Translations under genes and position numbers: made by a program
The notes under the pieces: generated by a model
Databases searched by the model: none
Seen by the model: only the letters and a program-made list of their open reading frames with translations
Told to the model about the DNA's origin: nothing
Part shown: one piece after another, positions 25,790 to 51,540 of the stretch
Position numbering within the stretch: position 1 is the first letter of the stretch
How the letters are laid out: every line of letters starts with the position of its first letter
NCBI GenBank assembly: GCA_025765595.1
Contig: JAIVFH010000126.1
Location: 24,633 to 88,632, forward strand
Reading direction: 5' to 3'
Origin: Obelidium mucronatum
Taxonomy: Eukaryota; Chytridiomycota; Chytridiomycetes; Chytridiales; Chytriomycetaceae
DNA: 64,000 nt

Positions 25790-28501
25790 TCAGCGCTTTG
25801 CCTTCTTGCTTGCGCTTTCTTCCTGAAGCGGCTCCCGCCAATACGCCTTCTTGACATGTTGGTTGTTTGCAAAGGCCTGAACCACTGTGTACGTCTGTGT
25901 GTGGTTTGCGCTGATGGCGGCTTTGCCCAGCCTTGTAGAAGTGCAGGTGGTTGAATGCTTGGATGAAGCTGCCAGAATTGTGGTTTTTGTCAGGAACACC
26001 AGTATAGAACAACAGCTTTTTGGTCCATTCAGCAAAATGACGTTTTGCTAATTCAAAAGTAAACGTCATTCCGCTGTATGTCGCGAAGAAGCACTTGTAC
26101 TTCAAGAAGATCTATAGCAAAGTCAGAAAACGCAGATAACAATCAATAAACATGCAATCACCTTTTTCATCTCCTCATTGTACAAGTGGAGCCCAACGTA
26201 TGCATGTCCAGACTCCTTCTTGTCAGGGAAGTTGACCAACCCAGTCTCCTGCTTGACCATTGCCCGGATCTTGTCCTTCCATATGTTCCCTTCAGCCAAC
26301 AGCTTGCAGTAGATGATCGCATACTTCATCACATCATTGACTTGCTTCTCCTTCACTCCTCCCAAACGTCCCACTGGTCGAAACACAATTGACGACTGCG
26401 TCGAAGTTGATTCCATTGAATCACGGCGGGAGCTGCCGGAGCCAGAGCTTGGAAGCATTGGAGTTGAGTCACAACGGCAGGGCGAGCAAACACCAGCCCG
26501 GGGTCCGAGCGGCACGCGCGATTCGGGGTCCGATTAGGGCCCGAATAGGAGGCCGACTAGGAGTCCTAATCGGACCCTATTAGGAGCTGGACCGATTAGG
26601 CGTCTAATAGGGCGCTATTAGGGGTCCTAGTGGCACTCCTAATCGCAAATGAGCCAATCGGACCTGTCCTTATAGCATTTGTTAGCTCTTAATAGGAGTT
26701 CTAATAGCCATCTTTTAAAAGGTTTTCAGTAGTTAATGTGCATTTTCTCATTTAATGCTATGTCCTATTCGGAAGTCCGACTAGGAGAAAGAAAACCCCT
26801 TCAAATAAAAGGAAAAAATAGAAATCTCCTACTGGAAACAGGTTAGGAGTACATTAAGGGGCGGCTAGGAGCGCCAATCGGCGTATTGGCCATTCCGATT
26901 CGGCCCCTTTTCGGGACTGCTCCTAATAGGGCCCTATTAGGACCCTAGTCGGACTCCGAATCGTTTCCCGACTAGGAGTCCAAATCGGGATCCGAATCGG
27001 GAGTGCCGCTCGCTATAGTACGTGGCAAACACTGGTTGCGAGACTATCAATAGAAAGGCAGTTGGTACCCCTTCCCCTGCTCAAACAAATCACAACACAC
27101 TTACTGCTTCTGGCTTTGATGTCGATCTGTCCAAAGACAGCTGTGTATTGAATTACAAATGACAATCGTCCAAAGCCATCTTCGTCAACAAGCTCCACGT
27201 AGTCGCAGCGGATCCGGAATGCTGCGTGACCTGAGAGGACCTTGATGATGTCACTTGGACCTAAAACAGAGTTAATACTCAGAGGATTTGAAGTCTTTCC
27301 GATCCAGCACATACGGAATTTCAACAAGCAGTTTCGTGACTTGTCGGCAATAAGAGTGACTCCGATTTTGGCTTTCGGCAGTTCTGGTGCTGGACTTTCA
27401 ACGACTTCATCTGCTGAATGTTGTTAGCCAAGCAATAAAAACAAATCTCTCACCATCATCGTAATCCAAAGAAAAAGGCTGTGTATCACTAATGGAGCTG
27501 CGGATAGAGCCAGACGACTGCGGCTGGCTTGACGCTCGTTCGTCTTTGTCGTCATCTTTGTCTTCATCATCCAAGTCTTCGTCATCATTGCGAGCGTCCC
27601 GTTTATCAGACTCGCTTGAGGTTGCATGGACATCATCATCATCAGCGCTATTGTCTGCGTCACTTTCAGATTGGATTCCCCGTTCGTCTAGTGAACTTAC
27701 AGACCCTGTTGTGTGATTTAAATGATTAAAATTAAAGAAACCACTTTTAATGACACTTATGTCTTCTGCGCCTTTCCACAGCTGTCTCATCGCGTTTAGC
27801 AGAGCTGGGCGTCTTGCTGTAGGTTTTGCGTGCAGGCTGTTTGGCTGGTGTTGGTGATGCTTGGCGCTTAGTCTTGGACATTAAAAATAAAGAAACATAC
27901 CTGCAATCGTTGGACCAACAATTACAACATTGTCGTCGCTTTCCTTTTCTTCGTCATCGGAACTGTGGAGAATAAAGCCACTCTCACTCCCATCTTCGCG
28001 TTGACGTTGCTCCCTGCGAACTTCATTCCGGATCGCTTCCTGCAGGTTGATCCGCGACTCCCGCAGTAAAACCCTCTGCAAGCGCTCCGCGTTCTTTGAT
28101 CCATCCACGTTTGTTTTGCTGGGTTCTGGGTACAGCTGTGTGGTAAACCGCACCTTGAACATGTTGTTCACATTCTTGCGATCTATAACAGCAAAAAACA
28201 GAGCCTTAGCAATGCATATACACTTAAAGTCAAATAAAACATTACCGTAGATGAATTGCGGCATGAGTTTTCTTGCTGTGTCAAGGTCCAGCTCTTTTCC
28301 GTCAGGATACATGACACCAAACCCCACTTGTCCAGCCAGAGCTGCGAGGTCATCGTCTGTAAGAAACTGAAAAGACTCAACGGTTTTTTTCAGTGTTTTT
28401 AAGACAATCAGGAAGTCCAGGTGTACTACAGTCATAAGCTGATTGTCGTTTTCTTTCAGATGGTAGTTGTACACCACTGGCGCAAAGTTAGTATTCAACA
28501 T
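25790..28501 (-). pseudogene. ORF2-b: diverged ORF2 homologue of a second KDZ family, interrupted by a MITE
   Basis: Minus-strand exons: VVYNYHLKENDNQLMTVVHL, LTDDDLAALAGQVGFGVMYP, RKNVNNMFKVRFTTQLYP, RESRINLQEAIRNEVRREQ, an acidic stretch (DDEDLDDEDKDDDKDE), then PSDIIKVLSGHAAFRIRCDY and HAYVGLHLYNEEMKK, FAKRHFAEWTKKLL-like blocks. Block order and spacing match ORF2 of KDZ-1 (TLKLVFLDKT, ALEDLCFSG, NKYHVVFAPTP, the acidic region, AYVGVYFADLEF), though identity is low. The gene is cut at 26,486-27,032 by a 531-bp non-autonomous KDZ-1 element. The C-terminal end is coding-like in two frames. Function unknown. Confidence 0.6.
26494..27024. mobile_element. 531-bp non-autonomous KDZ-1 element built of word arrays
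   Basis: Left tip CAGCCCGGGGTCCGAGCGGC, right tip GCTCGCTATAGTACGTG, flanked by the perfect 8-bp duplication GCAAACAC (26,486-26,493 and 27,025-27,032). The same tips and 8-bp duplication length mark the 5.35-kb element. The interior is almost wholly CCKAWTMGG-type words with spacers such as GTCC and AGTC. It has no coding capacity. Confidence 0.9.
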
Positions 28502-28503
28502 AC

Positions 28504-28960
28504 TTAAATAAGTCCTGTTAGATATAGTGGGTAGGATAGTGTAGAATGATGAATTAACATTACATGATTATATGCGGCACCAGCTCTCGCATTGCATCTG
28601 TGCATGTGTTGGGCGCCAATTTTGAGATGTTTGGGTAAAACACGTGCCCATGGATTGTAGAAACAATAAATAAAAATACCCCCAGTCAGCACTTTGCCTT
28701 CTTGCTCGCTTTCTTGACATGTTGGTTGTTTGCGAAGGCCCAAACCACTGTGTACGTCTCTGGCTTGCACTGATGGCGGCTTTGCCCAGCCTTGTAGAAG
28801 TGCAGGTGGTGGAACACTTGGATGAAGCTGCCAGAATTGGCTTGCATCGCAACTGGTAGTGTCCCCATAGCCAGACCTTCGCTCCATTGAATTTAACACA
28901 AATGAATTGTGCTTGAATAGTGGGACTTGCTTTGCAACGCGTCCATTTGTCATTCAAAAA
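28504..28960 (-). pseudogene. Extra copy of the ORF2-b C-terminal end
   Basis: Minus-strand sequence at about 28,650-28,880 (STTCTSTRLGKAAISA, QTTNMSRK) duplicates 25,780-26,000 in the same orientation. It is a truncated second copy lying just upstream of the ORF2-b start. Confidence 0.6.
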
Positions 28961-29409
28961 TTAAAATGGAAGACTATAAGAGAAACCAAAGGAAAATTTA
29001 GACTAGACCTCACCATTGTTTGCAAGTTTGTCTGTGTTGAATTAATATTCCAGCAAATTGGAGCGGCACCAGGTCTTACTGGGACAACAGCACAAAAAGC
29101 AGAGAGAAAGAGAAAGCCCTTTCATCATCTGCTTTTTATCTGCAATTCAAGCATTGTCTTTTTCTGTAACTGATGCATTGATGTATTTAGGAGAGAGAGT
29201 GAGTGTGTGGCATAGCGGCAGTTCCACAGGATGGCAATCTTGCAGACAGAACAGCAGACAAGAAGCCAGAGAGAAAGAGAAAGCCCTTTCATCATCTGAT
29301 TTTCATCATTTTCGAGTGTCTGTTTTAATAGAGGTGGCAGAAGTGAATGGCTGGCAATGCGGCAAACCAACTACTGGTACAAAAGACATCAATTTAACAC
29401 CAGATTCGA
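28961..29409. repeat. AAAGCCC-TTCATCATCTG repeats (KDZ-2-type end)
   Basis: Two copies of AGAGAAAGCCCTTTCATCAT near 29,104 and 29,275. The same motif (GAGAAAGCCCATTCATCATC) occurs twice near 34,890-34,960 and, inverted, four times at 37,890-38,080 beside the second KDZ gene. This suggests terminal repeats of that family. No gene. Confidence 0.55.
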
Positions 29410-29429
29410 CAGCGCGGGGTCCGAGCGGC

Positions 29430-29710
29430 ACGCGCGATTCGGGGTCCGATTAGGGCCCTATTCGGGGTCCGAATCGGGCTCCTAATCGGATCCGATTAGG
29501 ATCTAGTCCGATTCGGAGCCTAATCAGGGCCGAATAGGGGACCTAGTAGCACTCCTAATTGCAAATGAGCAAATAGGACTGCTCCTAGTAGCATTTGTCT
29601 GCTCCTAGTAGGACTCCTAATAGCATTTTGCTCTGCGAATTGGAAACCAAATGGCTTTAATACAACTCCTAGTAGGACTCCTATTGGGGCCCTATTAGCA
29701 CTATTGAATG
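29430..29710. repeat. A-type subterminal word array of KDZ-1
   Basis: Words CCGATTCGG, CCTAATCGG, CCTATTCGG, CCTAGTAGG and similar, spaced by GTCC/AGTC/GCCC. The word family CCKAWTMGG is its own reverse complement. The same array in diverged form ends the copies at 24,480 and 41,150. Confidence 0.8.
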
Positions 29711-29893
29711 TAAAACATCTAAAATAAATGCATTTAAAGGGTAAATAAAATTTTACACAATTTTTTTATACAACTATGCAAAAATCAAAGAAAAATCCAA
29801 AAATCCAAGAAAAATTCAAAAAAAAAAACCCAGATAAATCCAAAAAACCAAAAAAAATCAAAGAAGTATCAAAGAAAAACAACACTCAAAATA

Positions 29894-32788
29894 TCACTGG
29901 GTTTTCTTCTGAACAGGTTGCCTCTTCCAAGAATTTGCCAACACTCCCTCCTGGCACCCTTGAAAGTACTTTTCAACATCTTGAAAACCTGTAGTACTCC
30001 AACTATATATTTGATGCCTAGGGACCAATCTTGCATTGAACTTTGACATGTGCTTCCCAACATCGCTGTAAGAGAAGATGCAATCTTCTTTGTCAAAGTA
30101 GCTCGTGTACGTATTTGGAAAGAGCTAGTATTATAAATAAAGGATTATTAAAAGAAATTGCTTGAAGTGATACTAAAATAAAAACTTACTCTTTGGAATT
30201 CCAAATCAGCAAAGTAGACTCCAACATAAGCCCGAAAAATTTCCACAGTATTTCCAAAGTTGGGGAATTCCTTTGACAAGGTTGCAGCAGCAAGAGTTTT
30301 GGTCATTGGTGGCTCTCGATCCTGTGTCAGGTAAGAAAAGCGGATACCAACTTCTTTCACTTGACTAATGAACTTGTCTTGGGTGCCGGTGCGTCCTTTG
30401 GCTTTGGCAACAACTTCAGCAACAGACGTGGGGACTTGGCGACGCTGTTTGGATGAGATGGAAGATGGCTTTTCTTGCAGAGATGGCCCAGTCACAGGTG
30501 AATTAATCAATGGAGAACTTGCAAATGGATCAAACATTGCTCCTAAATACCAAAAATACTGAGAAATATGTTTAAACAAAATGGCATCCTACCAGAATCA
30601 GTGTAGGCAACATCAAAGTAATCAGGGCTGTGTGGATCCAAAGCAATGTCCACCAAAACTGATTCGTCAAAGATGTACTCCTCTTGGCAGAACCAACTAA
30701 CACTGTGGACCTTCCTGCGAAAGTGGGTTGTGGCTGGATGGACTTTTGCAGCAGCCAAAACATCAGCAAGAAAAACTAATAATGGATTGATTGTTAAAAA
30801 TGCACAATAAAGACAACAACTTGGTCTCACCTTTTGCCTTGTTTCCCTCAGCAAGTGTCCCTTCCACATTACAACGAAAAACTGCTCCTTGATTCTGAAA
30901 CTTGCATTTAACAGAAACCATCTTTTTCACCTCTGCTTCTTCTTCTCCATCACTGCCCAAAAGATTCATGACACGTCGCTTCTTTTTGGGATGAGCCTGC
31001 ACTTCTTCTTCTTCATCCACCACATCCTCATCATCCTCAACTTCATCTTCCTCCTCATCTATGTTCTCCACACGACGCTTCTTTCTGTGTACAACTGGCT
31101 CCACCACCTCAATTTCATCATCATCATCATCTTCAATCACAATTGCTTGAACCTTCTTTCTTTGCTGGACTGGTACCTCCCGCTCCTCTCCTGCTCCTCT
31201 TCCTCTTCAGCATCAAGCTCATTTTCTCCACCATCAACATCTTCAATGTCATCATCTTCATCAGCTTCAGACACTTCAGGCGCATTGTCAAGTGGTGTTA
31301 ACTCACTTTCTGAATCGTCAGCATCTGTTGACTTTCTGTGAGTTTCTGCCCAAGCCTTTAGGCTAGCCTTGAGATTATCAATGCTTTCAGCAACTGCGGG
31401 AGATACCACCGTAGAAGCCTGAGATTCGAGAACAGACATTGACTTGGATAAAGCAGTCTTGGAGGCACCAGCAGATCTTGGCTTGAGGACAGCTGTTTTT
31501 GGCACTGGCTTGGAACTGGAATCAGCTGTCTTGTCTGCTTTCTTGGGAGCTGGCATTGCCTTGGACACTTTGGGAGCTGGCATTGCCTTGGACACTTTGG
31601 AAGCTGAAGTAGCCATGGGAACAGTAGTGGCCTTGGACCCAGAAGTGGTACTTTTTGGGGAACCAGATTGAGAAGCAGGAGTAGTATTTGTAGCAGTGCT
31701 GGGAACTGTAGTGGCCTTGGGATCTGTAGTAGCCTTGGAAGCAGAGCTGGTCAAAGTCTTGGGGGAAACAGATGGGGGACCAGAAGCAGTCTTGCCAGCA
31801 CCAGGAGTAGTCTTAGCAGAACCAGGAGGAGCTGGAGTAGGATTAGCCTTTGAAGAACTTGGAGAAGTATGAGCAGGAATCGTGGAATCCGAAGTAGAAC
31901 CAGCTTGCTTGGTTGGTGTTCCTATCACATAATTAAATTAAATATTTGTAATTCAATCAAAAAAATGAGACTATAAATACCCAAACCAATTGGATCATCA
32001 GATCCCAAAAGTGGAAATGAAATTTTAGACTTGATAGCTCTTCTAGGCTCATTTTCTGCAGCAGAGCCTGGAAGCTGGCTGATAGGAGGAATATCAGGTT
32101 CACTATCAGACCTAACCTCATGAGCAGCCTGTTGTCTTGCGGCACAAGCAGTAGCCTTCTTGGCAATCTTGGTGGCATTGGTGTCAGCAGGAGTAGGAGC
32201 AAAAACAACATGGTACTTGTTGTTTGAAACTTTTCTAGCTGAAAGATAAAAAAATAATAAAAAAGTGTTAGATGATTAGAACATTAAAGAGGGTGAGGTT
32301 GGCTCTAAGTGCGCACCTATTAGCGCTCCAAATCGATTCCTATTAGTGCTCCAAATTGGTTACTATTAGTGCTCCAAATCAGCTCCAAATCGGATCGCGA
32401 ATCGGAGACAAATACCGCATCACAGCAAAAATAATCAGACACCATATACGCGTTCCTCATCATTTTCGGAATGATTTCCATCTAGATCCACAATCCCACT
32501 GAAGCAGAGGTCCTCCAGTGCTGTTAAATCCTGGTTTGTGTCTTTGATCCACTTGTACACTTCTGCCAGGGATTTGTTCTTCAGCCCAGGGATGTGGATT
32601 GCACATTTGGTTTTATCCAAAAACACTAGCTTCAATGTGTTGTTGGAGTTGATGTATCTGTTGTGGTTGGGAGTGGTGTGTCAGCAATCACATGTCAAAC
32701 ACAAACAAAGAAACCCAAACCTCAACATCTTGTCCAATGCCTCAGTGGCCTCCTCTACAAGCTCTTTAGGAGACCCTTTGGTTTCCAT
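29894..32788 (-). pseudogene. ORF2 of KDZ-1: large acidic protein of unknown function
   Basis: The first exons are 32788-32721, 32657-32443 and from 32238, with a 204-nt intron full of words. Later exons end in EFQR, LFPNTYTSYFDKED and VEKYFQGCQEGVLA, with a stop at 29,894. Layout: an N-terminal domain of about 110 residues, a Ser/Thr/Pro/Ala linker (about 31,930-31,400), an acidic region with basic NLS-like patches (HRKKRRVEN, HPKKKRRVMN), then two C-terminal blocks (VSVKCKFQNQGAVFRCNVEG; AYVGVYFADLEF). A one-base frame break in the Glu/Arg-rich stretch near 31,160 disconnects the two halves. A homologue (25,790-28,501) keeps the same order. A nuclear transposition partner is my inference. 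Confidence 0.65.
32300..32412. repeat. Word array inside an ORF2 intron
   Basis: Words around GATTTGGAGC, GCACTAATAG and CCAATTTGGAGC lie wholly within the intron 32,442-32,239. The same intron in the copy at 22,918-23,118 is nearly identical, unlike the KDZ intron array. Confidence 0.75.
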
Positions 32789-33540
32789 GACAGATCACTC
32801 CACAAGATGAAGATGGTCTTCTTGTCGTCCAAGGCTTTGTTTCCACAAGCCATTCTTGATCTCATCAAAAGAGAACTGGATGGACAGCCGGTTTGGGTTG
32901 TTGGTGACTCTGAGGGATTGCAGTGTACCTGGCAGTGGTGGTGGTGATTGCATGTGGAAAAAACTTTGCCGAAAAAAATGAAAATCCCTGCCTCACATGT
33001 CAAGATGGGAGCTCAGCTGGCAGAACAGTTCCCAGCCTTCCAAGCTGAGTTTTCAATCTACGGCAGTTTTGAAAAGACTTACAACAAGACACTCCGTTTG
33101 CGGGATTTCATTCAGCTTGTTGCTACTTCTTTTGGCGTTCCCATCCTGGCAGCCAAACAAACTGCAGAGGCTGTCTTTGATTCAAGAATTCACGAAACAA
33201 TTACCCCAAATGTACCTATTATCCTGTCAGCTCCGTTTACATACTGCATCAAGTGTCAGAGCCATCTAAAGATTGGGAGATGGCAAGAAGTCACAATCTT
33301 GGATGCAGATTCAGCTAAATCAGGTCTTCTGTACAAATCCAGCTGTGTGAATTTGAGCTGCAGTATTCAGTTGTATGATGTTGATTCAGTGTCAGAGATT
33401 ACCGAAGGAAACAGCAGCATAGAACATTACCCAATGAATACAATCAGAAAGCAAAACGTCATTGGAATCAATTCTAAATACTACATGACTGTTGCATTTG
33501 CAAATTTGTGGCTGAAGAATGTGCTGTCTGTAATGCTGTA

Positions 33541-33735
33541 AGTGTTGGTCCTAATAGCACTACTAATAGCGCTCCTAATAGCGCTCCTAATAGCGCTCCT
33601 AATAGCGCTCCTAATCGCGCTCCTAATAGCGTTCCGAATCGGAAGCGAATCGGAAGCGAATCGGAAAGCAATTAGGAGCGCGAATTGGAGCGCTATTAGG
33701 AGTGCTATTAGGAGTGCTATTAGTAGTGTTTGTTG
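33541..33735. repeat. Word array inside the KDZ-1 transposase intron
   Basis: Mostly CTCCTAATAGCG repeated about six times, then GGAAGCGAATC and GGAGTGCTATTA. The homologous intron at 11,760-11,990 has different words although the exons on both sides are closely similar. Confidence 0.75.
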
Positions 33736-33889
33736 CTTGTCATTTACTGACAGACTATTCCTTAGATGTAAAATGTATACTCTGCAGAATGCATACCATT
33801 CAGCATTTCCTTCTGTTTCATCAGATACTGAGGGGTTAGGATTCCTTCAGCTGCATCATCATCCATTTTCAAGCGGGCTTATTACTTCT

Positions 33890-33987
33890 TAAGGGATTGA
33901 TCCAAGGACCCAAAGGAACTCTTAAGGGATTGATCCAAGGACCCAAAGGAACTCTTAAGGGATTGATCCAAGGACCCAAAGTACATT
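33890..33987 (+). repeat. 33-bp tandem repeat, nearly three copies
   Basis: Unit starts TTAAGGGATTGATCCAAGG. It replaces the stretch that in the copies at 11,600 and 40,150 encodes the YQMLLLQEYIQDP region, and it brings a TGA into the reading frame in each unit. Confidence 0.8.
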
Positions 33988-34479
33988 CAGGATCCAGCAG
34001 TTTCAGAGGCGCTTCAAGCAGCTCATGAAGATTTTGATTATTCCTGCTTCCAACCTTCTTGGGGGGAGAAGGGCAGACGGCTGTTTCCGTATTCCCTACA
34101 TCTTGGAGAATACTCAAGCAATCAAGTGTCTGATAATGTAGAAGATTTGCGGTTGGCAATGAAGGAATATGTGGAGTGGATGAATGCGCACTTTGCAGTA
34201 AAATGGAAACATTCATGTGGAGAATGTCATGTTGTTGATAGCAAAGGCCAGGAGTATAGTGCGGCTGTGATGGATGGAAAAGTGATGGGGCACTTGCTGT
34301 GCAGAGTGATTGGATGCAATTTGGACATCATTGGGATCAATACAAAATTCTGTATCAATCATGCAGGATTGAAGGGGAAATGCATCATTTCAGGATGTGC
34401 AAATCAAAAACGAGAAGGTGAGTAATTTTTGGGAATTTTTTTAGAGTGTTTTGCAGTTGACAGTTATTTTCATAGGATG

Positions 34480-34745
34480 TTAAGTCCTAGTCTGTTGTCC
34501 TAATAGGACTGAGTAGCTCCTAATAGGACAATGCTCAAACTGCAGGAAAAAGTTGTTTCCTCCTAATGAGAAGTGATTAGGACTCCATTAGGAGGCGGCT
34601 AGGAGCGCCAATAGCCCTATTGGTCATTCCGAGTGGAGCCCGATTCGGGGTTACTCCTATTCGGACCCGAATCGGACCCTAGTCGGACTCCGAATCATTT
34701 CCCGAATCGGAGTCCGAATCGGAGTCCGAATCGCGCGTGCCGCTC
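34480..34745. repeat. B-type subterminal word array of KDZ-1
   Basis: Words such as CCTAATAGG, CCGATTCGG, CCGAATCGG and repeated GAGTCCGAATCG lead to the tip GTGCCGCTCGCTATAG. It is followed by the duplication AGATTCGA. Confidence 0.8.
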
Positions 34746-34767
34746 GCTATAGTACGTGAGATTCGAT

Positions 34768-36360: not shown

Positions 36361-36870
36361 GATACTAGAAAGCAGAGAATCCGGCTGATTCTGGCAGATG
36401 GAATGGGAACAGCGAGCTGGGCAGTGAAGAATAGCCAGGAAAGTTTGCAGAAAGTGCTGTGGTGGAGAAGCGGGGGGTTACCTTCAACATCAATTGCAAT
36501 GCCACAGATTGCAATCGGAAGATACGGGAATCAGTTTTGCAAGCTTTGGGTTGAGCAATGTGCATTTATTTACTGTCCATTTATTTAATTATTAATTAAT
36601 AATAAACAGCTATTTTCCTTATTTTATCCATTTTTTGTGACTTATTCTTGAGTTTTAGTGATGGTTGGGGGGTAGCGGCCTGTGAACCAGTGGCTTGTGG
36701 CTTGTTCCCACATAAAAAGGTACAGAGCGGCCTGCTCATAGGCCATGGCACAGGTCGCAAGCGGCTCGTTTGCGGCTCGTCAACAGGTCGCAAGCAGCCC
36801 GTGAGCGGCTCGTGACGCAACCAGTATCGCGACTCGCGAGGTCCGGCTCGCTTCCCCAATTGCCGCTAAT
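36361..36870 (+). mobile_element. Family X 3' end, second copy (ORF end, AT-rich tail, GC-rich word array)
   Basis: The ORF end (RIRLILADGMGTASWAVK, then RKIRESVLQALG, stop at 36,554) has a frame break. It is followed by the shared AT-rich tail and a word array (GCGGCTCGT, GGTCGCAAGC, GAGCGGCTCGTGACG) ending GAGGTCCGGCTCGCTTCCCC. The 41,155-41,848 copy has the same order. Confidence 0.65.
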
Positions 36871-37005
36871 CCATGTCCCGTCTGCAACTGAGGGGAGCGA
36901 AAACGGAACATTGATGAAGTGTCTGCAGTCACGACTGTTGCAGATACAGTCCAGCAGATCTGCAACTGTGCTGGCGTCACCTGGGGCTAATGGATGTTCG
37001 GACAT
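36871..37005 (-). pseudogene. Unknown protein fragment cut by family X
   Basis: Starts MSEHPLAPGDASTVADLLD, continues to PSVADGTWISGN and is then cut by the family X boundary at CCCCAATTG. Not recognised. The geometry matches the alpha-kinase fragment cut at 41,848. Confidence 0.4.
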
Positions 37006-37127
37006 TGTAAATCTTCTTTATTTTTAAATAAACCAAATTTTTTTTAAAAACAACCCAAAGTTTCTTTATTCGTGAAAAGACAAACAGAGAGTAGGGAAGG
37101 AAGGGAATAAAGAACCCACATATACAC

Positions 37128-37698: not shown

Positions 37699-37884
37699 AA
37701 TATTAAAAATAAATAATAAGAGAAGAAAACACACATACCACAATCAGCAATCAATGAATCATGCTTGCTGTTTCAGCAGGGAGGCCAACAAAGATTAATG
37801 CAGCGATAGGGGGATACAGGTGCAGTTTGACATAATTTCGTCCCGCCGAAAGAGACTTCACAAAAAAATGGCAAAAATGCGCAG

Positions 37885-38085
37885 TTGGTAGTGATGAATG
37901 GGCTTTCTCATTCTCCTACTTTGCAGATACGCAGATGATGAATGGGCTTTCTCATTCTCTCTGTCCTGCGGCACAAGTTTGTTGTTTGATTCAGTGGTGA
38001 TGAATGGGCTTTCTCGTTCTCCCGCTCCCAAACACTTCTATGCAGATGGGCTTTCTCATTCTCTCTGTACTGTGTTTCTCACTGT
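37885..38085. repeat. Four inverted ATGGGCTTTCTCATTCTC repeats
   Basis: The motif (GATGAATGGGCTTTCTCATT) recurs at about 37,893, 37,937, 38,000 and 38,044, just beyond the stop codon of the KDZ-2 gene. It is the reverse complement of the motif at 29.1-29.3 and 34.9 kb. Confidence 0.7.
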
Positions 38086-38133
38086 CGACGCAAGGGGCAC
38101 AAAAACCAAGATCGTAAATGTGAGTTTTGTTAT

Positions 38134-40121
38134 TTATTCATCCTCTTCTTCCTCATCCCCTTCCACTCCTTCACCATCATCTTTGTTGTCATCTTCATCA
38201 TCCTCCTCGTCATCCTTTTCTTGTTGTTCCCCCTCCGCTTCCATTTGGTCTTTGCTTTCATTTCTAATAACTCTTTTCTTCTTTGAAATTCTGTTCTGGA
38301 TGCCGGCGTTTCTCAAGTCTGCGAGACACCACATAATGAAATCCGCTTGGACAGGCTCGTGGAAGCGAATCAGGTGAGCGGTTTGATCAAACCACTTGGC
38401 ACAGTGTTCGGACGTGTTAAACCTCCCCTTTCCATTTGCAGGCCCTCCTGACGTCAATTCCTTGAATTTTGCTGGATCGCAATGCTCTGTACAGAAGTCG
38501 TCCCTGTGCATCCGAAAGTGGAACCTGTCAACCACAAACGTAACAGTCTTGTACAAGAACCTGATTCCAACAAAGATTGGTGGTAAGTATAAGAGCAGAA
38601 CACTATATAATGAACAGAGCGCGTAATAATAAATAAGTAAAGTGCACCTTTCATATATTGTGAATTTTCCTGCTACGTGCCGGGCGCGTAGGGATTGGAG
38701 CAAGCGGCAGGCTCTATTGTAGAAAACAAAGGTCGGTACTTCGCCCATTCGCGCAAAACAGTGGCATAAGAAGCGAGAAATAAAGGTAGAAGACTCAAAA
38801 GAGTACATCTTAGATATTCCAATGATCATGCCGCAGCTCCACACAGCCATAAATATTCCAGGCAGGAACCGCTGCTTCAGACTGTACTTGAACCGCTGAT
38901 CCGCTACTAACTCTTTTTCTTGTGTATCAATATGCACTGTAGATGTTCGCGTTTTTTTGGACTTTCGCGTCGCTTTAAAGTCCTTGTTCCACTGTTTCCC
39001 AATGATCTCCTGGACAGTTGCGTTGTGAGAGCTGAGTCCGCAGGTATGCAAAACAGTGTCTGTCTTTTTTTGCTTGCAGCCAGAGATGATGCACTCATTC
39101 TTCAGGGGCGCATGCGATGAGCAGAACAATGTGTTCACACCAAGAATAGGCAACACACAGCCAGGCACAGAACACAAGAGATGTCCCATAACTTTCCCAT
39201 GCATTACACTGCCAGAGATTTGTTTTCCATTGTAAAACTGGTGGCACCTGTCGCAGCGGTGACACCATTTCTTGCTAAAGTAATCAGTCATGAACGTGAC
39301 GTATTCCCGCATTGCGAGCCTGATGTCATGAATAGAATTACCTGTTTTTGGTAAGTACGGACCCAGAAACAGGGAGTTGCTCCACACATGTGTTGTTTTG
39401 GGGGCCCAGGAAGGTCTGAAGTGAGTGAACCGCATATGTTCATAGTCATCATTGGCAGGGATCTTGGAGATGTACTGCTGAAGTAGTAGCATAAAATCCA
39501 TGTTTGAAGATCACTGCGCTGTCTGGATCAGGCACTTTGATGGTTGGGAAGGCCAGTGAATATGCAGGTGAGTTGTTACACACTCCTTAGCGGATTCCGA
39601 CTTCCATGGCCACCGTCCTGCTGTCTAGATGAACTAACACCTTTTGTGGTGTCTACATGAGCGTGTATTTAGGCACTTTAACTCGACGCGCTGCTCACAA
39701 TACAGCTTCACCCTATGTGCGAGGCATGAGTAAATAAGCAATTTAGTATTTACCATGCAAGAAAATACCAACAGAAGGCCAGATGGCAGGTGCTTTAGCC
39801 AGAGATCTGCAAAAGGTATGGTGACGTAGTACTGCTCATTGATCTTGAGGAACCCAACTGACAGGATTGTTTCAAGCGGATACATCTCTATCAAGCTGCT
39901 TCTGTTTGTCTTCGCTCATGTACGCGACAGGAATCCACATTGTACCACATGCGGCATTTAGTGCAGTTGCCCTTGAACAGCAACGCGTGGTATGGGCCTT
40001 CCATCCCCAACACCACTACTTGTGTGCTGCTGAAAGTCAAGTTTTTGGTGCACCTGTGGCATTGCGAGAATGGAGTCTGATACTGAACAGTATTCAGGGA
40101 TTCCCTCAGCTGCATCATCAT
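38134..40121 (-). pseudogene. KDZ-2 transposase with CxC5, CxC6 and catalytic core
   Basis: The main exon 39501-38134 encodes 455 residues: HFRPSWAPKTTHVWSNS, KWCHRCDRCHQFYNG, CxC6 (HLLCSVPGCVLPILGVNTLF, SSHAPLKNECIISGC), then the core FLPGIFMAVWSCGMIIG, TFVFYNRACRLLQSL, FVVDRFHFRMHRDDFCTEHC, FNTSEHCAKWFDQTAHLI and an acidic tail. Upstream minus-strand pieces (40,121-39,754) carry CxC5 (CHRCTKNLTF, KGNCTKCRMWYNV, YYVTIPFADLWLKHLPSG) with a frame break near 39,895. The family core usually has Asp in YDxAC; here it is Asn. The 5' end abuts an unrelated KDZ-1 fragment at 40,070. Confidence 0.75.
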
Positions 40122-40640
40122 CTATTTTTAAGCGGCGTATTACTTGTACCAGATGCTCCTATTGCAAGAGTACATTCAGGATCCAGTTCTATCAGAGGCG
40201 CTTCAAGCAGCTCAAGAAGAATTTGATTACTCCTGCTTCCAACCATCTTGGGGGGAGAAGGGCAGACGGTTGTTTCCATATTCCCTACATCTTGGAGAAT
40301 ACTCAAGCAATCAAGTGTCTGATAATGTAGAAGATTTGCGGTTGGCAATGAAGGAATATGTGGAGTGGATGAATGCACACTTTGCAGTAAAATGGAAGCA
40401 TTCATGTGGAGTATGTCATGTTGTTGATAGCGAAGGCCAGGAGTATAATGGGGCTGTGATGGCTGGAAAAGTGATGGGGCACTTGCTGTGCAGAGTGATT
40501 GGATGCAATTTGGACATCAGTGGGATCAATATAAAATTATGTATCAATCATGCAGGATTGAAGGGGAAATGCATTATTGGAAGAGGCAACCTGTTTAGAA
40601 GATATCCATGTGATATTTTGAGTGTTGTTTTTCTTTGATT
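40070..40640 (+). pseudogene. KDZ-1 transposase fragment fused to the ORF2 C-terminal end
   Basis: Plus frame YQMLLLQEYIQDPVLSEALQ through SCGVCHVVDSEGQEYNG and the CxC6 start, then at KGKCII it switches to GRGNLFRRYPCDILSVV, which is the 3' end of ORF2. In the intact layout these two pieces lie at opposite ends and on opposite strands, so the join marks a deletion plus inversion. Confidence 0.7.
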
Positions 40641-41152
40641 TTTCTTTGATTTATCTTTGATTTTCTTTGAAATATCTTTGATCTATTTTTGATCTATCTT
40701 TGATTTATCTTAGATAAATATTTGTTTGATTTTTGTTTGATTTTTTTTGGATTTTTCTTGGTTTTTTGGATTTTTCTTTGATATTGGAGAGTTGCATAAA
40801 ATCTCTTGTAAAATTTTATTTACCCTTTAAATGCATTTATTTTAGATGTTTTACATTCAATAGTGCTAACAGGGCCCCAATAGGAGTCCTACTAGGAGTT
40901 GTATTAAAGCCATTTGGTTTCCAATTAGCAGAGCAAAATGCTATTAGGAGTCCTACTAGGAGCAGACAAATGCTACGAGGAGCGGTCCTATTTGCTCATT
41001 TGCAATTAGGAGCGCTACTAGGGGCCCTAATTGGCCCTGATTAGGCTCCGAATTGGACTAAATCCTAATCGGACCTGATTAGGAGCCCGATTCGGACCCC
41101 GAATAGGGCCCGAATCGGACCCTGAATTGCGCGTGCCGCTCGGACCCCGGGC
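40641..41152. repeat. A-type subterminal word array with intact tip
   Basis: TTTGATTTATC-type repeats are followed by words (AGGAGTCCTACTAGGAG, CCGAATAGG, CCTGATTAGG) and the tip GCGTGCCGCTCGGACCCC. The tip joins family X sequence (GTGGTGGATGAGGAAGACGC) that is uninterrupted at 24,990. Confidence 0.75.
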
Positions 41153-41535
41153 TGTGGTGGATGAGGAAGACGCGGAACCGCCCGTGTTATGGCCAGCGCT
41201 GTACCTACCAGATCGAAACGTGGTGATCCCAGCGGTGCATAGGGAGGCGATTGTTTCCATGTTCAAGCATGAAAAACATGGTACCAGGATGTGGCATTCA
41301 GGGAAGCGACGATTTGTGGAGGCAGCGGAGTTGGCGGCGGAGGCGGATACTAGAAAGCGGAGAATCTCGCTGATTCTGGCAGATGGAATGGAAACAGCAA
41401 GTTGGGCGGTGCAACCAGGACAGGTTTGTGGGAAGCGCTGTGGTGGAGAAGCGGGGACTTACCTTCAACATTAATCGCGATGCCACAGATCGCAATCGGA
41501 AGATACGGGAATCGGTTTTGCAAGCTTTGGGTTGA
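41153..41535 (+). pseudogene. Family X ORF fragment, longest copy
   Basis: VVDEEDAEPPVLWPALYLPD, RNVVIPAVHREAIVSMFKHE, RRISLILADGMETASWAVQ, then after a frame break NINRDATDRNRKIRESVLQ and a stop at 41,535. The upstream half is represented at 24,670-25,030. Unknown family; the IRESVLQALG end is shared with 36,554. Confidence 0.55.
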
Positions 41536-41848
41536 GCAATGTGCATTTATTTACTATCCATTTATTTAATTATTTATTAATAATAAACAGCTGTTTTCCT
41601 TATTTTACATATTTTTTGTGATTTCTTCTTGAGTTTTTGTGATGGTTGGGGGGGTAGCGGCTTGCGAACCAGTGGCTTGCGGCTCGCGCCCCACAAAAAA
41701 AGGTACAGAGCGGCCTGCCAGCAGGCCGTGGCACAGGTTGCAAAAGCCCGCTAGCGGCTTGTCAGCAGGTCGCAAGCGGCCCGTGAGCGGCTCGAGACGC
41801 GACCGGTATCGCGACTCGTGAGGTCCGGCCTGCATCCCCAATTGTATA
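41536..41848. repeat. Family X AT-rich tail and GC-rich word array
   Basis: After the shared tail (AATAATAAACAGCTGTTTTC) come words GCGGCTTGCGAACCAGTGGC, GCGGCCTGCC, GGTCGCAAGCGGCC and GACGCGACCGGTATCGCGAC, ending GAGGTCCGGCCTGCATCCCC. The array abuts the alpha-kinase fragment at CAATTG. Confidence 0.7.
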
Positions 41849-43170
41849 ATGCGAGAAACAATCCATGATTTGAGCTGCTGTTGTTTGCTGGCCAAACTTG
41901 GCGTTGCTTTGGTACTTTGTGAAAGTGCCAGGGATACAAGCCTCCACAAAAACAACAGGGAACGAGTAGCTGCCCTCCAATTCATAAACACTCCCATCCA
42001 CGAAAGAAACCCCATCCATGGATTCAAGAATATTGCCTGCTCCTGCCTGTCCCTGATCTGCACATGTGCGGGCATGCTCTAAGAACGCAACCCAGCTCTG
42101 ATTTGCAACCCACAAGCATTGTGCATCTGATTGATGGACATAATTCGTATTTTGACTGTGATTCTTGTAAATTTTGGCAACAAGATCAATAGCCCTGCCT
42201 TTGACTGGTTCAGTAATTATAAGAGATGACAAATCAAAAACACTACCTTGAACTTGACAGGGGTGTGCCACTCTTGCGGAACCTTTGGCCAATGATTTTG
42301 GATCAATGGAGATGTTTCGGGTCTTTTCCTCAAATTCACACTCCTTGAAGTCCAATTTACACACACTTAAGTCATAAGAGCGACATGACACCCATACAAC
42401 ATCTCCACAAACCCTTTTTGAGGTGGAGTACAGGGTTCTGAGACTTTCTTGCTTGCTGACGTCAAAAAAAAAACCCATTTTGCCTTCGGCTCCACGTTTT
42501 GACGCCTTGAATGTAATTCTTGGGCGTTTCGAAATGTGGACAAATCTTGAGTGGAACCATTGAATGCCGTCAGAAAACAAGCTTCCAGCTTTGGAACACC
42601 ATACTTTGCCAAATCCGCTCAATTCATTGCTTCTAATTTGAAGTGATTGAAAGTGGCTTGCTTTACTTCATTGACGGCAGCATCAGAATCAAAGAGGATA
42701 TGCTGTAGTTTGAAATCAGGATCATTGTCGAAAGTTAGAAGTAATAAAAAGCCCTACATGATCCATTATTCCAGATGGGCCAGGTTTCTTATCATGAATC
42801 TTGAATATGAAGGTTATCTTGGTTTTTGATGGAGGGTTTCCAGCCCTAGCAGAGCTGGATGTTCTCACTGCTGCATTCGCATGCTGCTGGATCATTTCTG
42901 CCTGGCTAGAGTCTGTATTTGTTTCAAAAGTCCATCAAAAGAGTCGTCTCTGTTGTGGTGTAATAATGTCATGAACACTTACAGTGTCAGTGTTTCTGTA
43001 CCTTGTGTTGTACCGCTTGAGCTCCCAAAAGCCTATGCCAGAATGGCAGCTTTCTGTTCCTTAAAATTGGATTCATCAATAATATTTTTGTCTCTTAGAG
43101 CCTCACTGACATTTGATGGTCCTTTTTGGGGGGGACAAAAAAATTTAATTTGGAGATTTTATTTGTGACC
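41849..43170 (-). pseudogene. Alpha-kinase (EF2K/MHCK-type) gene, truncated
   Basis: The minus frame from about 42,620 reads GFGKVWCSKAGSLFSDGIQW, IDLVAKIYKNHSQNTNYVH, then SYSFPVVFVEACIPGTFTKY, QSNAKF, Q and MDCFSHYTI. FVE...PGxFxKY followed by AxQxMxCFSHxT is the alpha-kinase signature. The sequence stops just before the expected DLQG segment, where family X begins. Upstream exon-like pieces (NEVKQATFNHFKLEAMN, KTKITFIFKIHDKKPGPSG, SNVSEALRDKNIIDES) extend to about 43,150 in changing frames. Probably a host gene destroyed by insertion. Confidence 0.7.
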
Positions 43171-43196
43171 GGAGCCGCCTCCGTTGCTGTAAGATA

Positions 43197-43282
43197 TACT
43201 CAGACCAGGAAAGCAACTACTCAGACCAGGAAAGCAACTACTCAGACCAGGAAAGCAACTACTCAGACCAGGAAAGCAACTT
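43197..43282 (+). repeat. 21-bp tandem repeat, four copies
   Basis: CTCAGACCAGGAAAGCAACTA is repeated four times almost perfectly. It directly precedes the copia integrase fragment. Confidence 0.9.
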
Positions 43283-43408
43283 CACGGGATCCACGCTAAG
43301 AGACGCATGCCAAGATGCAGGCATCAGGCTAATAACAACCTCCACTGGAGCCCACCACCAGCACAGAGAAATCAATGGATGGTTCAGAACAGCAATGAAC
43401 GGCGTAAG
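43283..43408 (+). pseudogene. Ty1/copia integrase fragment
   Basis: The frame CQDAGIRLITTSTGAHHQH then REINGWFRTAMNGV resembles the copia integrase segment that normally reads T-x-PxxPQQNG-xxER-xNRT. It ends at the tip of a KDZ-1-type element (43,409). Confidence 0.5.
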
Positions 43409-43725
43409 CACGTACTACAGCGAGCGGCACTCCCGATTCGGACCCTATTTGGACTTCTATTTGGAAAACAATTTGGAGTCCGAATAGGGCCCGATTCGGG
43501 TCCGAATCGGAGTCTGAATCGGTCTAGGCTGTCCGTTAGGCCTAACGGCACTCCAAACGGACTCCAATTGAGCTCTGAATGCGCTTCCAATTGGATTTAC
43601 AGGTCCTAACAGCTTTTTCAGCCCATCGCTAAAAGCGCGTTGATAGTCCTAGTCAGAAAGCTAGTCAAACGCGGCTAGGGGTCCTACTAGGATCCCTGTT
43701 AGGACTCCAAATCTCAAAAACTTTG
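43409..43725. repeat. B-type KDZ-1 end and word array
   Basis: Tip CACGTACTACAGCGAGCGGC, then CCGATTCGG, CCTATTTGG, CCGAATAGG, CCTAACGGC, TCCTACTAGGATCCC and related words. Its interior side (43,430-43,830) is homologous in inverted orientation to 51,010-51,535. Confidence 0.75.
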
Positions 43726-44146
43726 TGCATCTGACTTGTGTCTCACATATGTTTCAAATCATTATTATTCCATTGTTATTTCTATTTGACTGAACTACCT
43801 TTTGAATTCAAATCAAGTTAATTAATGCTTCAGATTGCACAATCCGGAATTTATTCACTGCAAAATAAGTAGCTATGTTTGCATGCAATCGAGAATTAAT
43901 ATAAGTTGACATAGAGCAGTTAAGAAATGGCAGTGGCTTTGAAGATGATCTGGTGAGGCAAGTATTCAAAGTTAGGCTTGTGTGATAAATTTTAAATTTT
44001 CTCTCTCACACAGCAAATCGATCCTCCAGAATTTTTCAAGAAATCTAGGAGAACTTGGACAAATCTACAGAATTCTTAGGATCTTCCTTTGTTCTTTATT
44101 GCAATAAAACAGTATTAACCATGGAACGCTCACTTTAAAATAAGGC

Positions 44147-47096: not shown

Positions 47097-47113
47097 CCTT
47101 TTATTCTTCCAAA

Positions 47114-49440
47114 ATGTCTATGTCATTGTCACCACTACCAGCAGAGCAATCATCACCCATCACCGCCCCAGTTTCAGCTTTTAGCCCCGGCTTTATTACA
47201 CCAATGTCCACGAGAATCCGCGAGCTGGAAGACTGCAACCGTGTTTTGGAGGCATTGGTGGCATCCAAGCAACAGGATATCAACCGTCTCCAAAACTACA
47301 TTGACACTGACCACAATGAGCACAAGAAAAGGTTCTATTCCTTGCGCGAGTAAGTTTTATTATTAGACCTCCAACTCATGTGATTGCTAATGCACCCACA
47401 ATAGGAATCTCCCAGTTGCTGCTGTTGCTACATTCAAACCGTCTAGTACTCCTTTCAAGCCTTTACAATCACCTCTGAGTGATTATCCTTCTATTGAAAT
47501 CATGAAACGTGATGTGTTGAGTGTTAGTATTTCACTCATCCTTTTCAATTTTCAAACTGCTGACTCTTCTCGCCAACAGACTGTAACCACCACTTGCCGC
47601 TTGTTTGCTGCTGACAAAGCCCGCAATCACAAGGGTTCTATACGCTTGAAGAGTGCCCCTGGGGACCAAAATCTGATTTTGGATTTCCGAAACGCAATGA
47701 CTATTGTGGTTGAGTCAGCCACAAAGGCATTCATCAGCCTGAGTGCAACAACAGCCGCTTCAAATCATGAAATTGTTATCTATTGTATCAAAGGCTGTTT
47801 TGAAAATCTCTCGGAACCTGTCTTGAAGTATGCGTACAGTTTGCTATCCCTGAAGTTGGATGCAATGAACCCCTCCTTTTCTACACTGCAATCCATGGTG
47901 TGGGCAGCTTTGGTCCATGGATTGAGTGCTGTGGTTGCATTTGCAAAGCCTCTTCGAGCTGCTTTCGGGAAAGGTACAGTTTCTTGATGTTGAGCCTTGT
48001 TCCAATTGCTTAGCAACCTTATATAGAACAAACAAGGGACGCTATTACAACAAGCTTGGCAACATCAGCAACCGGCAACACTTCAAAAACAGTAGCATCT
48101 AGAAGCGCTTCTGGAATCCAAAATGAAGATGCAGCAATACCAGTTAGTGACGATGATGAACCAGACCTGAAGAAGTCTTCATTTCTATGGCGAAAGGCAA
48201 TCCTTGTGTATGATCCGCCATCCATTCTTTCAAATGTTGTGTTGGGCCGGTATATCCAACGGCTGCAAGCTGTGACTCCAATACCTGGCCCGGAACTGCT
48301 GCTGTCGTTGGCGGCAATTGAGAAAGGAATGCTGGACAGAATTGTGAGTGAATATCTGTACTTTTTTTCTTAATGTGGGATCAGATTGCAACAGACTGTG
48401 CCACGCATCTACAATGTTTCAAGCCTGCCATTATGCAACTTGTGATGCGATTGAATGGAAGGGGGCACCAATGCAGCGTGAGCTCTTTCTTGGAGAATAT
48501 TGTTCCAAGGCTTCTTGGTTTGGTATACACTGTCCATTGCTCTGACTCCAGTGGTCTCGTATCTGCCTGTATTAAACAGAAGGCATTCAAACATGGCGCT
48601 GATGCCAATTTGACAGTCTCTGGTATCCTTCTCCACATCAACAGTGTTGGGAACTCAACAGTGCTGCCTCAACTTCTCCAGACACTTGTAAAATCTCTGC
48701 TTCCCGCCTACTGTAACCCCACGCTACTTGGAGATCCTCACATGTGGATTCAAGGTCTGATGGATGACTTGGACTTGAGCTCAAGAGAATCAGAAACTTC
48801 AAATAAGAAAACGGTCTGGGATGATTCCGTTCATATCTTGTGCAAGGTTTTGCTTCACCCAGACCTGGACAATATCACGACGGAAGCTGCAGATCCTATA
48901 GTTGGGGATTTGACTTATTTGAACAATGATATTCGAGTATTCTGGGCATTGCGTGTAATTGGGAACACTATTCTTTGCCTTTTTCCACATGCGTGAGTTT
49001 TTTGTCTTTTACCTTGTCCAAACTGAATTGATGACAACAGCGCCACTGTCAGCTTCTGGTCGACGTGGCCAATCCTTCCCACAAAACCGATGAAGTCTTC
49101 TGTAATGCAAATCTTCCATTTGCCACCATATTGTGCTTCGGCCATCAATTCTGCCATCGCTTCCACTACCAATGCTGCAGTTTTGCTGTCTCAACCACCA
49201 CCATTGTCACCGGGACTTGTCGACGAACCAATTCCACAAACGAAATCAAAGGTGGGCACTTCAAAAGCAGTACAAAAGCCGAAACCAAAGCAACCTGCAA
49301 ATGCAAAAAAACCGAAGATATCGCAAGTTGCTGCCACACGAACAGACAGCACCATGACTACACAATTTGTGGATAGTAGACATCCAAGAAGGCCTGTAGC
49401 AAAGAGGGGATATGAGGAAGTTTCAGGATCAGATAGTTAG
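47114..49440 (+). CDS. Second gene of the CACTA/EnSpm-like element, unknown function
   Basis: ATG 47,114, only 17 bp from the transposase start, so the two genes share a very short divergent promoter. Exon 1 ends near 47,349 (GTAAGT) and is spliced to NLPVAAVATFKPSSTPFK. Features: an N-terminal coiled coil (RIRELEDCNRVLEALVASKQ), a helical middle (FRNAMTIVVESATKAFISL, SLLSLKLDAMNPSFSTLQ, AILVYDPPSILSNVVLGRY, LVMRLNGRGHQCSVSSFLEN) and a basic Pro/Lys-rich tail ending KRGYEEVSGSDS. Later splice sites near 47,510, 47,970, 48,345 and 49,000 are approximate. A DNA-binding or regulatory partner is my inference. Confidence 0.65.
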
Positions 49441-49694
49441 AACCGAATCTTATTGGGTGCTTTATTATTGGCGTTACGTATATTGCATACATGCACGAGA
49501 ATTGAAAGAAATAAAGGAATAATATTGGAGAATACAGCAGTTTTTCTTTCGTATTTCTCTCGAATATCTGATTACAGCATAAATTCTCCTAGAATTCTCT
49601 TAGAATTCCCTTTTATTTCTTTGAGATTCCTAGAAGAATTCTATTCAAGTTCTCCTAGATTTCTTGAAGAATTCTGGATGATCGATTTGCTGTG

Positions 49695-50184
49695 CAGGCA
49701 TGTATTAAAATTGTTAATAAACATGCAGGGTGAAAAGTTGATGATGGGAAAAAAATTGCATGAAATTTTAATTGGGATGGAAATATGTACAAGTGCAGAG
49801 TTGAGAAAATTTTCATTTGATAATTATGTTAAGTTAAATATTCTCATAGTTTCTAAGTTTATATTGCAATGGAAGAGATTTCTGCCTTTATGTCCACCGG
49901 TGCGAAGGGTCCTTATCAGTGAAAACTCCCCATTAGGGCTCCTAATGGCCCAATTAGGGCTCCTAATGGCCCAATTAGGGCTCCTAATCTAATGGGTCCA
50001 ATTGGTTTGCTATTAGGGTGAAAAATGCTAGTAGCGCTCCTAATAGGAGCAAAAAATCCGATTAGGAGCAACGAAAAAATGCGTTTTTTTTCAATCAGAA
50101 TTCCTATTGGAGCTCCAATTGGGGCCAAAAAGGCTCCGAATCGCTCTCAGTCCGATTTGCTTGTGCCGCTTGGACCCCAGGCTG
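49695..50184. repeat. A-type KDZ-1 end with word array
   Basis: Words AGGGCTCCTAATGGCCCA, CCAATTGG, GCTCCTAATAGGAGC and CTCCGAATCG lead to the tip GTGCCGCTTGGACCCC. The block at 49,870-49,945 (GAAGGGTCCTTATCAGTG) recurs inverted at 50,845-50,900. Confidence 0.7.
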
Positions 50185-50835
50185 CTTTCATTCCTGGAGG
50201 CAGCAAGACCCAAGACAGAGCAAGAAGGGGAAGATTCATATTGTACGCCTATCCAGACAGACAAGCAAACGCCCAGCAAGGATACCAAATCCTTTTTGAC
50301 AACAGCAGCACGCTTGTCAGCAGAGATGTTTTCTTTGTTGAGAACCAATTCGACGTCGAGAACCCAAAGTTCCATTAACTCAATACAACAAACACCATGA
50401 CAACAATGGGTGGGATGAAGACAAAGACTTAAGAAAAAGTGCATGACAAAGAAAAGGGTAAAGAAAGGCTTGATAGGATGGAAGTAGAGAAAAACGTCAA
50501 GGAACTGGAGAGCATAACACAAGATAATGGGATGGACGTCAAAGATGTGAACACAGAACCTTACCAGGAAGACTCCAGTTCCAACTACAAACCTCAAGAC
50601 AAAGACATGTCAGAGACATCCTCCACTTGCAGTGAATTGCCAAGCACCACCTCTCTGCCACCCCTTGACTCAAGCAGCGCAACCTCTCCACCACACCCAG
50701 AAAATCTCCACAAGAATTAAAACTACCCAACTGTCTTGCACTCTTTGCTGGACTTGCAAGGACAACACCAGATACATGATCCACAAACCAACATTCTTAG
50801 CTTTCATTGCTTTGAAAAGAGGCCTCGTTTTTTAC
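50185..50835 (+). pseudogene. Ty1/copia integrase C-terminal part and linker
   Basis: RARRGRFILYAYPDRQANAQ, then YQILFDNSSTLVSRDVFFVE, is the copia signature G-x-F-V-G-Y ... SRDVxFxE at the integrase end. A Glu/Lys/Ser-rich linker follows (KNVKELESITQDNGMDV, SETSSTCSELPSTTSLP), as usual before reverse transcriptase. It is interrupted at 50,836. Confidence 0.65.
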
Positions 50836-51540
50836 TCCTAATGGGGAGTTTTCCACCAATAAGGACCCTTCGTACAGGTGAACATAAAGCAACCAAGAAC
50901 AAATATTTACGCGGCTGCAAGATGCAGACTATGGCAACTTTACTGCAAAAATCTCTTCCATTGCAATTGAAACTTTGAGAATTTTCAACTTCGCATAAAA
51001 AAGGGAATATGCTTTCCCACAGCAGTTGCAGGTAGCTTAGTCAAATTGAAATAACAATGGAATAATAATTAGCATACATGCGACACAAGTTTGTATTACG
51101 TCATTCATTAAACCCATTGAGAGGACTGGGCGACAACTTTTTTAATTTGAGTGAAAATTTTGTTTGAAAATTTCAGGATGAAGGCTCAGAAAATTTTTCT
51201 GATGGCTTCAAACCCCCCTATGTTCACCAAGTTTTTGAGATTTAGAGTCCCAATAGGGATCCTATTCGGACCCCTATCCGCTTTTGACTAGCATTCCGAG
51301 TAGGACTGTCAACTTGCATTTAGCAATGGGATCAAAAAGCTCTTAGGAGCTGTAAATCCAATTGGAAGCGCATTTGGAGCTCAATTGGAGTCTGTTTGGT
51401 GCGCCGTTAGGCCTAACAAACAGCCTAGTTCAATTTGGACTCCAATTAGGACCTGAATTGGGCCCTAGTTGGAACTCCGAATCGTTTTCCATATAGGAGT
51501 CCAAATCGGGTCTGAGTCGGGAGTGCCACTTGCTAGAGCC
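50836..51540. repeat. Inverted copy of a KDZ-1 B-type end
   Basis: 51,010-51,535 is the inverted homologue of 43,430-43,830 (GGATTTACAG, CCAATTGGAAGCGC, AACAATGGAATAATAAT shared). It ends in a degraded tip GTGCCACTTGCTAGAG. The left edge (CTCCTAATGGGGAGTTTTCC) is the inverse of 49,930. Confidence 0.65.

Follow-up and report, generated by a model that had tools for sequence, protein, structure and literature searches.

A short self-complementary DNA word, CCKANTMGG, is packed into both subterminal regions of a group of transposons with CxC6 genes in the chytrid Obelidium mucronatum, and a near-copy of it forms a long hairpin in one intron of their gene. The window analysed here is the 64,000-nucleotide stretch C126:24633-88632 (contig JAIVFH010000126.1) of the 48.3-Mb genome, which comprises 694 contigs; positions below count from its first letter. 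The word is composed of two inverted CCKA half-sites flanking one free base. We propose, with a probability of roughly 0.55, that the terminal arrays serve as multi-site docking platforms for a DNA-binding protein encoded by the element itself.

A self-complementary word packed at 11-12 bp

An earlier note on this DNA had described arrays of CCKAWTMGG. The word is indeed enriched: the window contains 42 exact matches, compared with a mean of 0.80 and a maximum of 3 in 100 dinucleotide shuffles. The self-complementarity of that consensus also stands, while its centre was drawn too narrowly. Versions with C or G in the middle add 12 further words where 0.51 are expected, and the central letter is therefore N rather than W. 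All eleven dense tracts named in the note are enriched. When words with up to 2 mismatches were counted against 200 shuffles per tract, none of the shuffles (0/200) reached the observed count in any tract; in six control stretches treated likewise, 15 to 200 of the 200 did. The tracts at 24.2, 32.3, 33.5, 49.9 and 51.2 kb contain 2, 0, 1, 2 and 2 exact CCKANTMGG, respectively, and consist mainly of degenerate words. The excess extends to the whole genome, where the word occurs 1789 times and its reversed pattern, which served as control, 629 times; of word pairs separated by 1-6 bp there are 397, and of such pairs of the reversed pattern only one. Chance from base composition is thus rejected by the shuffle controls for exact, C/G-centred and mismatched words alike.

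The architecture of the word emerges from 3,222 bases of array, in which perfect inverted pairs of 4 bp flanking a single base occur 54 times (about 12.6 predicted from composition), most commonly as CCGA (17) and CCTA (12). Inverted pairs separated by 0, 2 or 3 bases occur 16, 25 and 56 times, respectively. Members of the 3-base class (TAGG, TCCT, TCGG) share bases with these words, whose flanks and spacers they mirror, which means that the spacer is symmetric too. Among 53 words, all four bases occur at the centre, and the four combinations of K and M are found 17, 13, 12 and 11 times, so that the two letters vary independently. The outer neighbours are a pyrimidine on the left and a purine on the right, each in 47 of the 53. 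Since the centre is free, K and M combine evenly and the flanks are Y and R, we write the unit as YCCKA-N-TMGGR. In dense runs the usual distance between centres is 11 bp (12 cases) or 12 bp (6 cases). A distance of 11 bp implies that the 11-bp units abut, and the spacers are 2-3 bp long, shorter than the 3-5 bp given previously. A simple tandem repeat, already dismissed in the note, is rejected because the K, N and M letters vary from word to word and the spacings mix 11, 12 and 16 or more bp.

Arrays within long imperfect terminal inverted repeats

Two elements in the window are bounded by exact 8-bp target duplications: a miniature inverted-repeat transposable element (MITE) and a larger copy, which we call element A (Table 1). 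Comparison of the left with the inverted right end over 150 bp gives an identity of 73% for the MITE and 71% for element A, against 56% in a letter-shuffled control. The word arrays therefore lie in long imperfect terminal inverted repeats (TIRs), and the earlier statement that they are not a normal TIR has to be revised in part. Element A is probably an internally deleted copy.

The termini read CAGC...CGTG. With up to 3 mismatches allowed, the genome contains 151 right termini and 0 matches to the reversed control. Thirty MITE loci were fetched, of which three without one end were excluded, and L055 stayed one-ended on retry. Exact 8-bp duplications flank 16 of the 27 two-ended loci, two of which (L043 and L044) have an identical duplication. 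A further four loci all have one (4/4); that of L101 equals that of L064. Of nine right ends picked by terminus alone, seven hold 1-7 exact words. The other two hold none, and at the corresponding aligned places they show, by eye, altered words such as CCGATTTGG.

Common termini, 8-bp duplications and CxC6 genes place the arrays in one transposon group, as had been assumed. For the 50 listed of the 397 word pairs, the distance to a right terminus or CxC6 match is at most 5 kb in 41 cases, 10 kb in 49 and 15 kb in all 50. The word also occurs singly elsewhere: of the 45 words on contigs C1 and C2, 24 are over 1 kb away from any right terminus.

Table 1. Word arrays, elements, introns and CxC6 genes in the window.
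Feature	Position	Strand	Evidence and remarks
MITE, non-autonomous, 531 bp, word arrays at both ends	26494..27024	+	termini, flanks; 14 exact CCKANTMGG
MITE target duplication, 8 bp, GCAAACAC	26486-26493 and 27025-27032		exact
Element A, 5.35 kb, same termini as MITE	29410..34758	+	termini, flanks; CxC6 fragment inside; tblastn pieces
Element A target duplication, 8 bp, AGATTCGA	29402-29409 and 34759-34766		exact
Element A, left subterminal word array	29410..29730	+	9 exact words; 30 copies aligned
Element A, right subterminal word array	34470..34758	+	8 exact words; right-end alignment
Degenerate word tract within element A, no hairpin	32290..32415	.	0 exact words; fold z 0.1
CxC6-gene intron, GT-AG, 228 nt, filled by word hairpin	33538..33765	+	splicing restores frame
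CxC6 part of presumed transposase gene, element A	33967..34422	+	PF18721 45.2 bits
Intron at equivalent place in another gene copy, 281 nt	11711..11991	-	frame; fold z -14.1
Degenerate left-end array without recognisable terminus	24200..24500	-	87% to 40847-41124; 2 exact words
CxC6 open frame, second gene type, P0001-related	38137..39510	-	PF18721 45.4 bits
First-gene-type fragment, weak CxC6	40132..40635	+	PF18721 23.4 bits, below 27.5
Left-type end with word array	40850..41154	-	terminus 41133-41154, flank ATCCACCA; 94% to 29.4-kb end
Right-type end with word array	43409..43720	-	terminus with 1 substitution, flank CTTACGCC
Left-type end, degenerate array	49905..50184	-	terminus with 2 substitutions, flank AATGAAAG; 17 words at up to 2 mismatches
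Degenerate right-end array	51225..51540	+	85% inverted match to 43479-43727; 2 exact words

Introns filled by word hairpins

The earlier note had placed arrays in introns as well as at ends. This proved right for those at 33.5-33.7 and 11.8-12.0 kb; the tract at 32.3 kb, with 8 words at up to 2 mismatches (1.36 expected), forms no hairpin (z 0.1). The note had overlooked that each of the intron arrays folds into a long hairpin and is built of a variant word, CCKAWTMGC, in which C replaces the last G of the terminal word. In element A this word recurs with a period of 12 bp and the intron folds far below shuffled expectation (z -16.7 for the core, -18.6 in a second fold run). The 11.7-kb copy contains a different hairpin built of the same kind of words, and six other places in the genome are candidates for a similar intron. 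With the intron removed, the flanking frames connect and give similar readings in the two copies, while translation through it runs into a stop within its first codons, again in both. Further stops lie nearby in either copy, and both genes are probably dead.

We compared this intron with the 20 best-scoring of 39 places outside the window, giving 21 loci with 18 distinct cores; such a choice favours relatives of the window copy. All 18 cores fold far lower than their dinucleotide shuffles (z -5.9 to -22.7). The intron unit reads TCCKAWTMGCR and keeps a 12-bp period in 144 of 174 spacings. When units were located with no constraint on K and M, 194 of 206 had G or T at K and 185 of 206 had A or C at M. 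An intron of the second CxC6 gene type (39540-39790) contains 0 exact words; its raw folding energy is -72.1 kcal/mol.

The public gene model P0009 translates such an intron array as protein (...APNRAPNSVPNRK..., cf. window 33538-33765), which means that intron arrays are misannotated as coding.

Changes within the words

We compared copies within families (30 left ends, and 26 and 5 copies of two MITE families) and between families in two comparisons, the left and the right end of element A each against the MITE. Within families, 16 distinct in-word changes keep the motif and 56 break it, 34 of the latter being CpG transitions. Between families, 17 keep the motif and 2 break it (4 with another anchor), which divides into 9/2 or 8/1 kept/broken on the left and 8/0 or 9/3 on the right. 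The within-family and between-family ratios differ with Fisher p values of 1e-7 and 2e-6, or 0.0006 and 0.006 once CpG transitions are excluded; these values are rough, since the events are related by descent. Individual copies thus lose the word, largely via CpG transitions. From one family to another it is preserved, although letters, word number and spacers change, which is in line with the earlier idea of a word that is kept as order and spacing drift. Judged from these substitution patterns, selection likely acts on the word. The high share of CpG transitions in this decay suggests that the cytosines of these elements are methylated in this chytrid.

Several observations weigh against selection and against our choice of unit. 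The inverted pairs with three bases between them are as numerous as the one-base class (56 and 54), and preferring the latter is our own decision. Between the two MITE consensuses, 6 changes keep the motif and 4 break it one way, and 3 and 0 the other way. The 43.4-kb end compared with the end of element A gives 2 kept and 1 broken, or 3 and 2. Changes common to at least two copies of one family mostly break the motif (4/8, 3/16 and 0/1 kept/broken), which recurrent CpG hits could explain. Finally, alignments with single right-end copies contain many breaks.

CxC6 genes and relation to KDZ elements

The CxC6 profile (PF18721, cut-off 27.5 bits) has 86 matches across the genome, of which 84 exceed the cut-off. 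The second gene type in the window is 90% identical to the Obelidium mucronatum protein P0001 over 91% of the query. P0001 itself scores 49.9 bits with CxC6, above the cut-off, and 21.8 bits with CxC5, below its cut-off of 26.9. Its C-terminus contains what we take to be DDE-like residues. No relative of solved structure was found for P0001 at E<=1, and six relatives of ORF2, another potential binder, match no Pfam family above cut-off.

CACTA elements end in CACTA and make short (2-3 bp) target duplications. The termini CAGC...CGTG and the 8-bp duplications found here do not fit the CACTA (En/Spm) superfamily.

The label KDZ, given in the earlier note, fits in part. A CxC cluster, 8-bp target duplications and TIRs are all present. 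The KDZ catalytic profile PF18758, however, has no match at E<=1 in the six family proteins scanned (P0001, P0002, P0005, P0007, P0008 and P0010), and none of the genome's 16 PF18758 places lies on the contig of the window. We therefore speak of a CxC6, KDZ-like family. CxC6, 8-bp duplications and long TIRs are in line with KDZ elements as portrayed in two articles (PMC12730594, PMC12810828). That the arrays are a feature of all KDZ elements is unsupported: 0 words occur at the 16 PF18758 loci (~54 kb), which is weak evidence, as coverage extends only ~1.5 kb to either side of the domain and chance predicts about 1 word.

Discussion

How might such arrays work? The position of the arrays at termini with 8-bp duplications, the dyad with its free centre, the independence of K and M and the 11-12-bp packing support a docking platform, as does the retention of the word between families. 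The most likely binder would be the CxC6 transposase-like protein, which, as a dimer, may recognise the inverted site YCCKA-N-TMGGR. Several such dimers would then sit next to one another across each subterminal region, and this packing would give specificity to a short word and could aid the pairing of the ends.

The strongest competitor, to which we give a real but clearly smaller chance, holds that the arrays are a mutational by-product: self-complementary words slip, fold, switch template, multiply and interconvert, all without function. Conversion and slippage between words are the main alternative to selection, as word-to-word conversion alone would produce changes that appear to preserve the word. 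In keeping with this, whole words were gained or lost among the 30 left ends through 11-12-bp deletions and one 23-bp insertion, and the intron cores differ in length by ~12 bp. The two arms of the intron hairpins bear on the same question with mixed results on copy-specific pairing. Word-order shuffling indicates a match overall, with 17 of 18 cores under the shuffled mean (combined z -5.9), only 4 of the 18 having 0/100 shuffles equally low, and by alignment score the match is equalled in 169 of 20,000 permutations. By duplex energy, 4,835 of 20,000 permutations do as well, so that no copy-specific match is seen, against what the by-product account would favour. Moreover, conversion should spread broken words too, yet ends that are only ~80% alike have the word in common.

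A docking platform is also to be preferred over the view, improbable to us, that the folded form matters (as a DNA cruciform or single-strand hairpin), that the letters do not, and that words are kept for pairing. The folding of all 18 intron cores would suit this view, as would that of the terminal tracts, which range from z -3.2 to -7.8 (n=9) and lie below the controls at -0.4 to +1.9 (n=6). Such weaker folding of terminal tracts is expected from self-complementary words. No single long hairpin, though, is seen in them by eye. Nor does pairing need the terminal CC, the A/T flanking the centre or G/T at K, and yet the intron units keep their K and M letters in 194 and 185 of 206 cases. Least probable are host transcription factor sites captured by the element to drive or insulate genes; single words do occur elsewhere (the 24 of 45 on C1 and C2), but gene-less MITEs bear full arrays at both ends, and the scattered words are largely chance, since the reversed pattern alone gives 629 matches against 1789.

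For the intron array, control of the expression of its own gene is the most likely role, which could be exerted by protein on DNA or by an RNA hairpin acting on splicing. A more speculative and rather unlikely extension is a self-limiting sensor, in which the binder of the terminal words would also dock on the intron words, with the hairpin switching transcription or splicing. If so, every word gained or lost, whether in an end or in the intron, would tune mobility and self-repression jointly, and the differing word hairpins in one intron of related copies would be a trace of selection.

In En/Spm and other CACTA elements, subterminal repeats are recognised by TNPA (PMC2613891). As in our arrays, the motifs are short, numerous, concentrated in both subterminal regions, retained by non-autonomous copies and different between element families. 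The binder there also regulates its own element, as the putative binder here may. Differences are the self-complementary site, the degenerate K or M in each half, the 8-bp duplications and the CxC6 genes. Galileo has long TIRs with multiple sites for its THAP domain, a multiplicity that was proposed to supply specificity (PMC3688188). The likeness lies in many short sites, here putative transposase sites, within long and internally repetitive terminal repeats; Galileo belongs to another superfamily and uses another domain, and its binding is demonstrated, whereas our sites are known from sequence. A further comparison is with the KDZ elements of Cryptococcus. KDZ1, ~11 kb long, has TIRs of 241 bp and duplications of 8 bp, and KDZ2 and KDZ3 have TIRs of 139 and 169 bp (PMC12810828). 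Long TIRs, 8-bp duplications, cysteine-cluster transposase genes and a fungal host are shared; the cluster is CxC1 there and CxC6 here. In the main text of that article the term 'subterminal' is absent and 'palindrom' appears once, for a restriction site. The stwintrons of Hypoxylaceae are, like ours, fungal spliceosomal introns with internal symmetry (PMC8469720); ours are found at a single place in a transposon gene and are composed of transposon-end words.

At the level of titles and the beginnings of abstracts, no such arrays are described among the matches listed for the KDZ/Zisupton/Kyakuja-Dileera or Obelidium mucronatum transposon literature. A multi-site platform is of a familiar kind, while no precedent is known for the self-complementary lattice or for an intron hairpin that nearly copies it. 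The arrays supply an explicit recognition code that can be put to the test, with CCKA as half-site, a free base at the centre and packing at 11-12 bp. With 151 right termini within one genome, word-by-word evolution can be read directly, and the intron hairpin of near-identical words would make transposon self-regulation testable in a simple fungus.

Further features of the window and genome

Apart from the two elements with both ends, the window contains isolated ends. No partner was found within the window for the left-type end at 40850..41154, and among the three ends at 41.1, 43.4 and 50.2 kb no two have matching flanks. The 43.4-kb and 49.9-50.2-kb ends, in particular, are not joined by a target duplication, as their flanks CTTACGCC and AATGAAAG differ.

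On contig C11, three right termini follow each other in tandem, 223 bp apart (G000:C11:324378, 324601 and 324824), which suggests a tandem array derived from an element end. On contig C155, two MITEs in opposite orientation, L042 (G000:C155:6044-6575, + strand) and L045 (2542-3072, - strand), have swapped 8-bp flanks (CTTCAAAT and GTTTGAGT); this points to an inversion, through recombination, of the ~3 kb between them. The window itself holds two inverted copies of 1340 bp that are 99% alike (22059-23398 and 31959-33298); they are separated by 8.6 kb, and element A contains one of them.

Adjoining the transposon ends, an open frame with an alpha-kinase domain (PF02816, 46.1 bits, cut-off 21.3) lies at 41765-42667 on the reverse strand, and the stretch 41346-41844 is related to 36361-36862.

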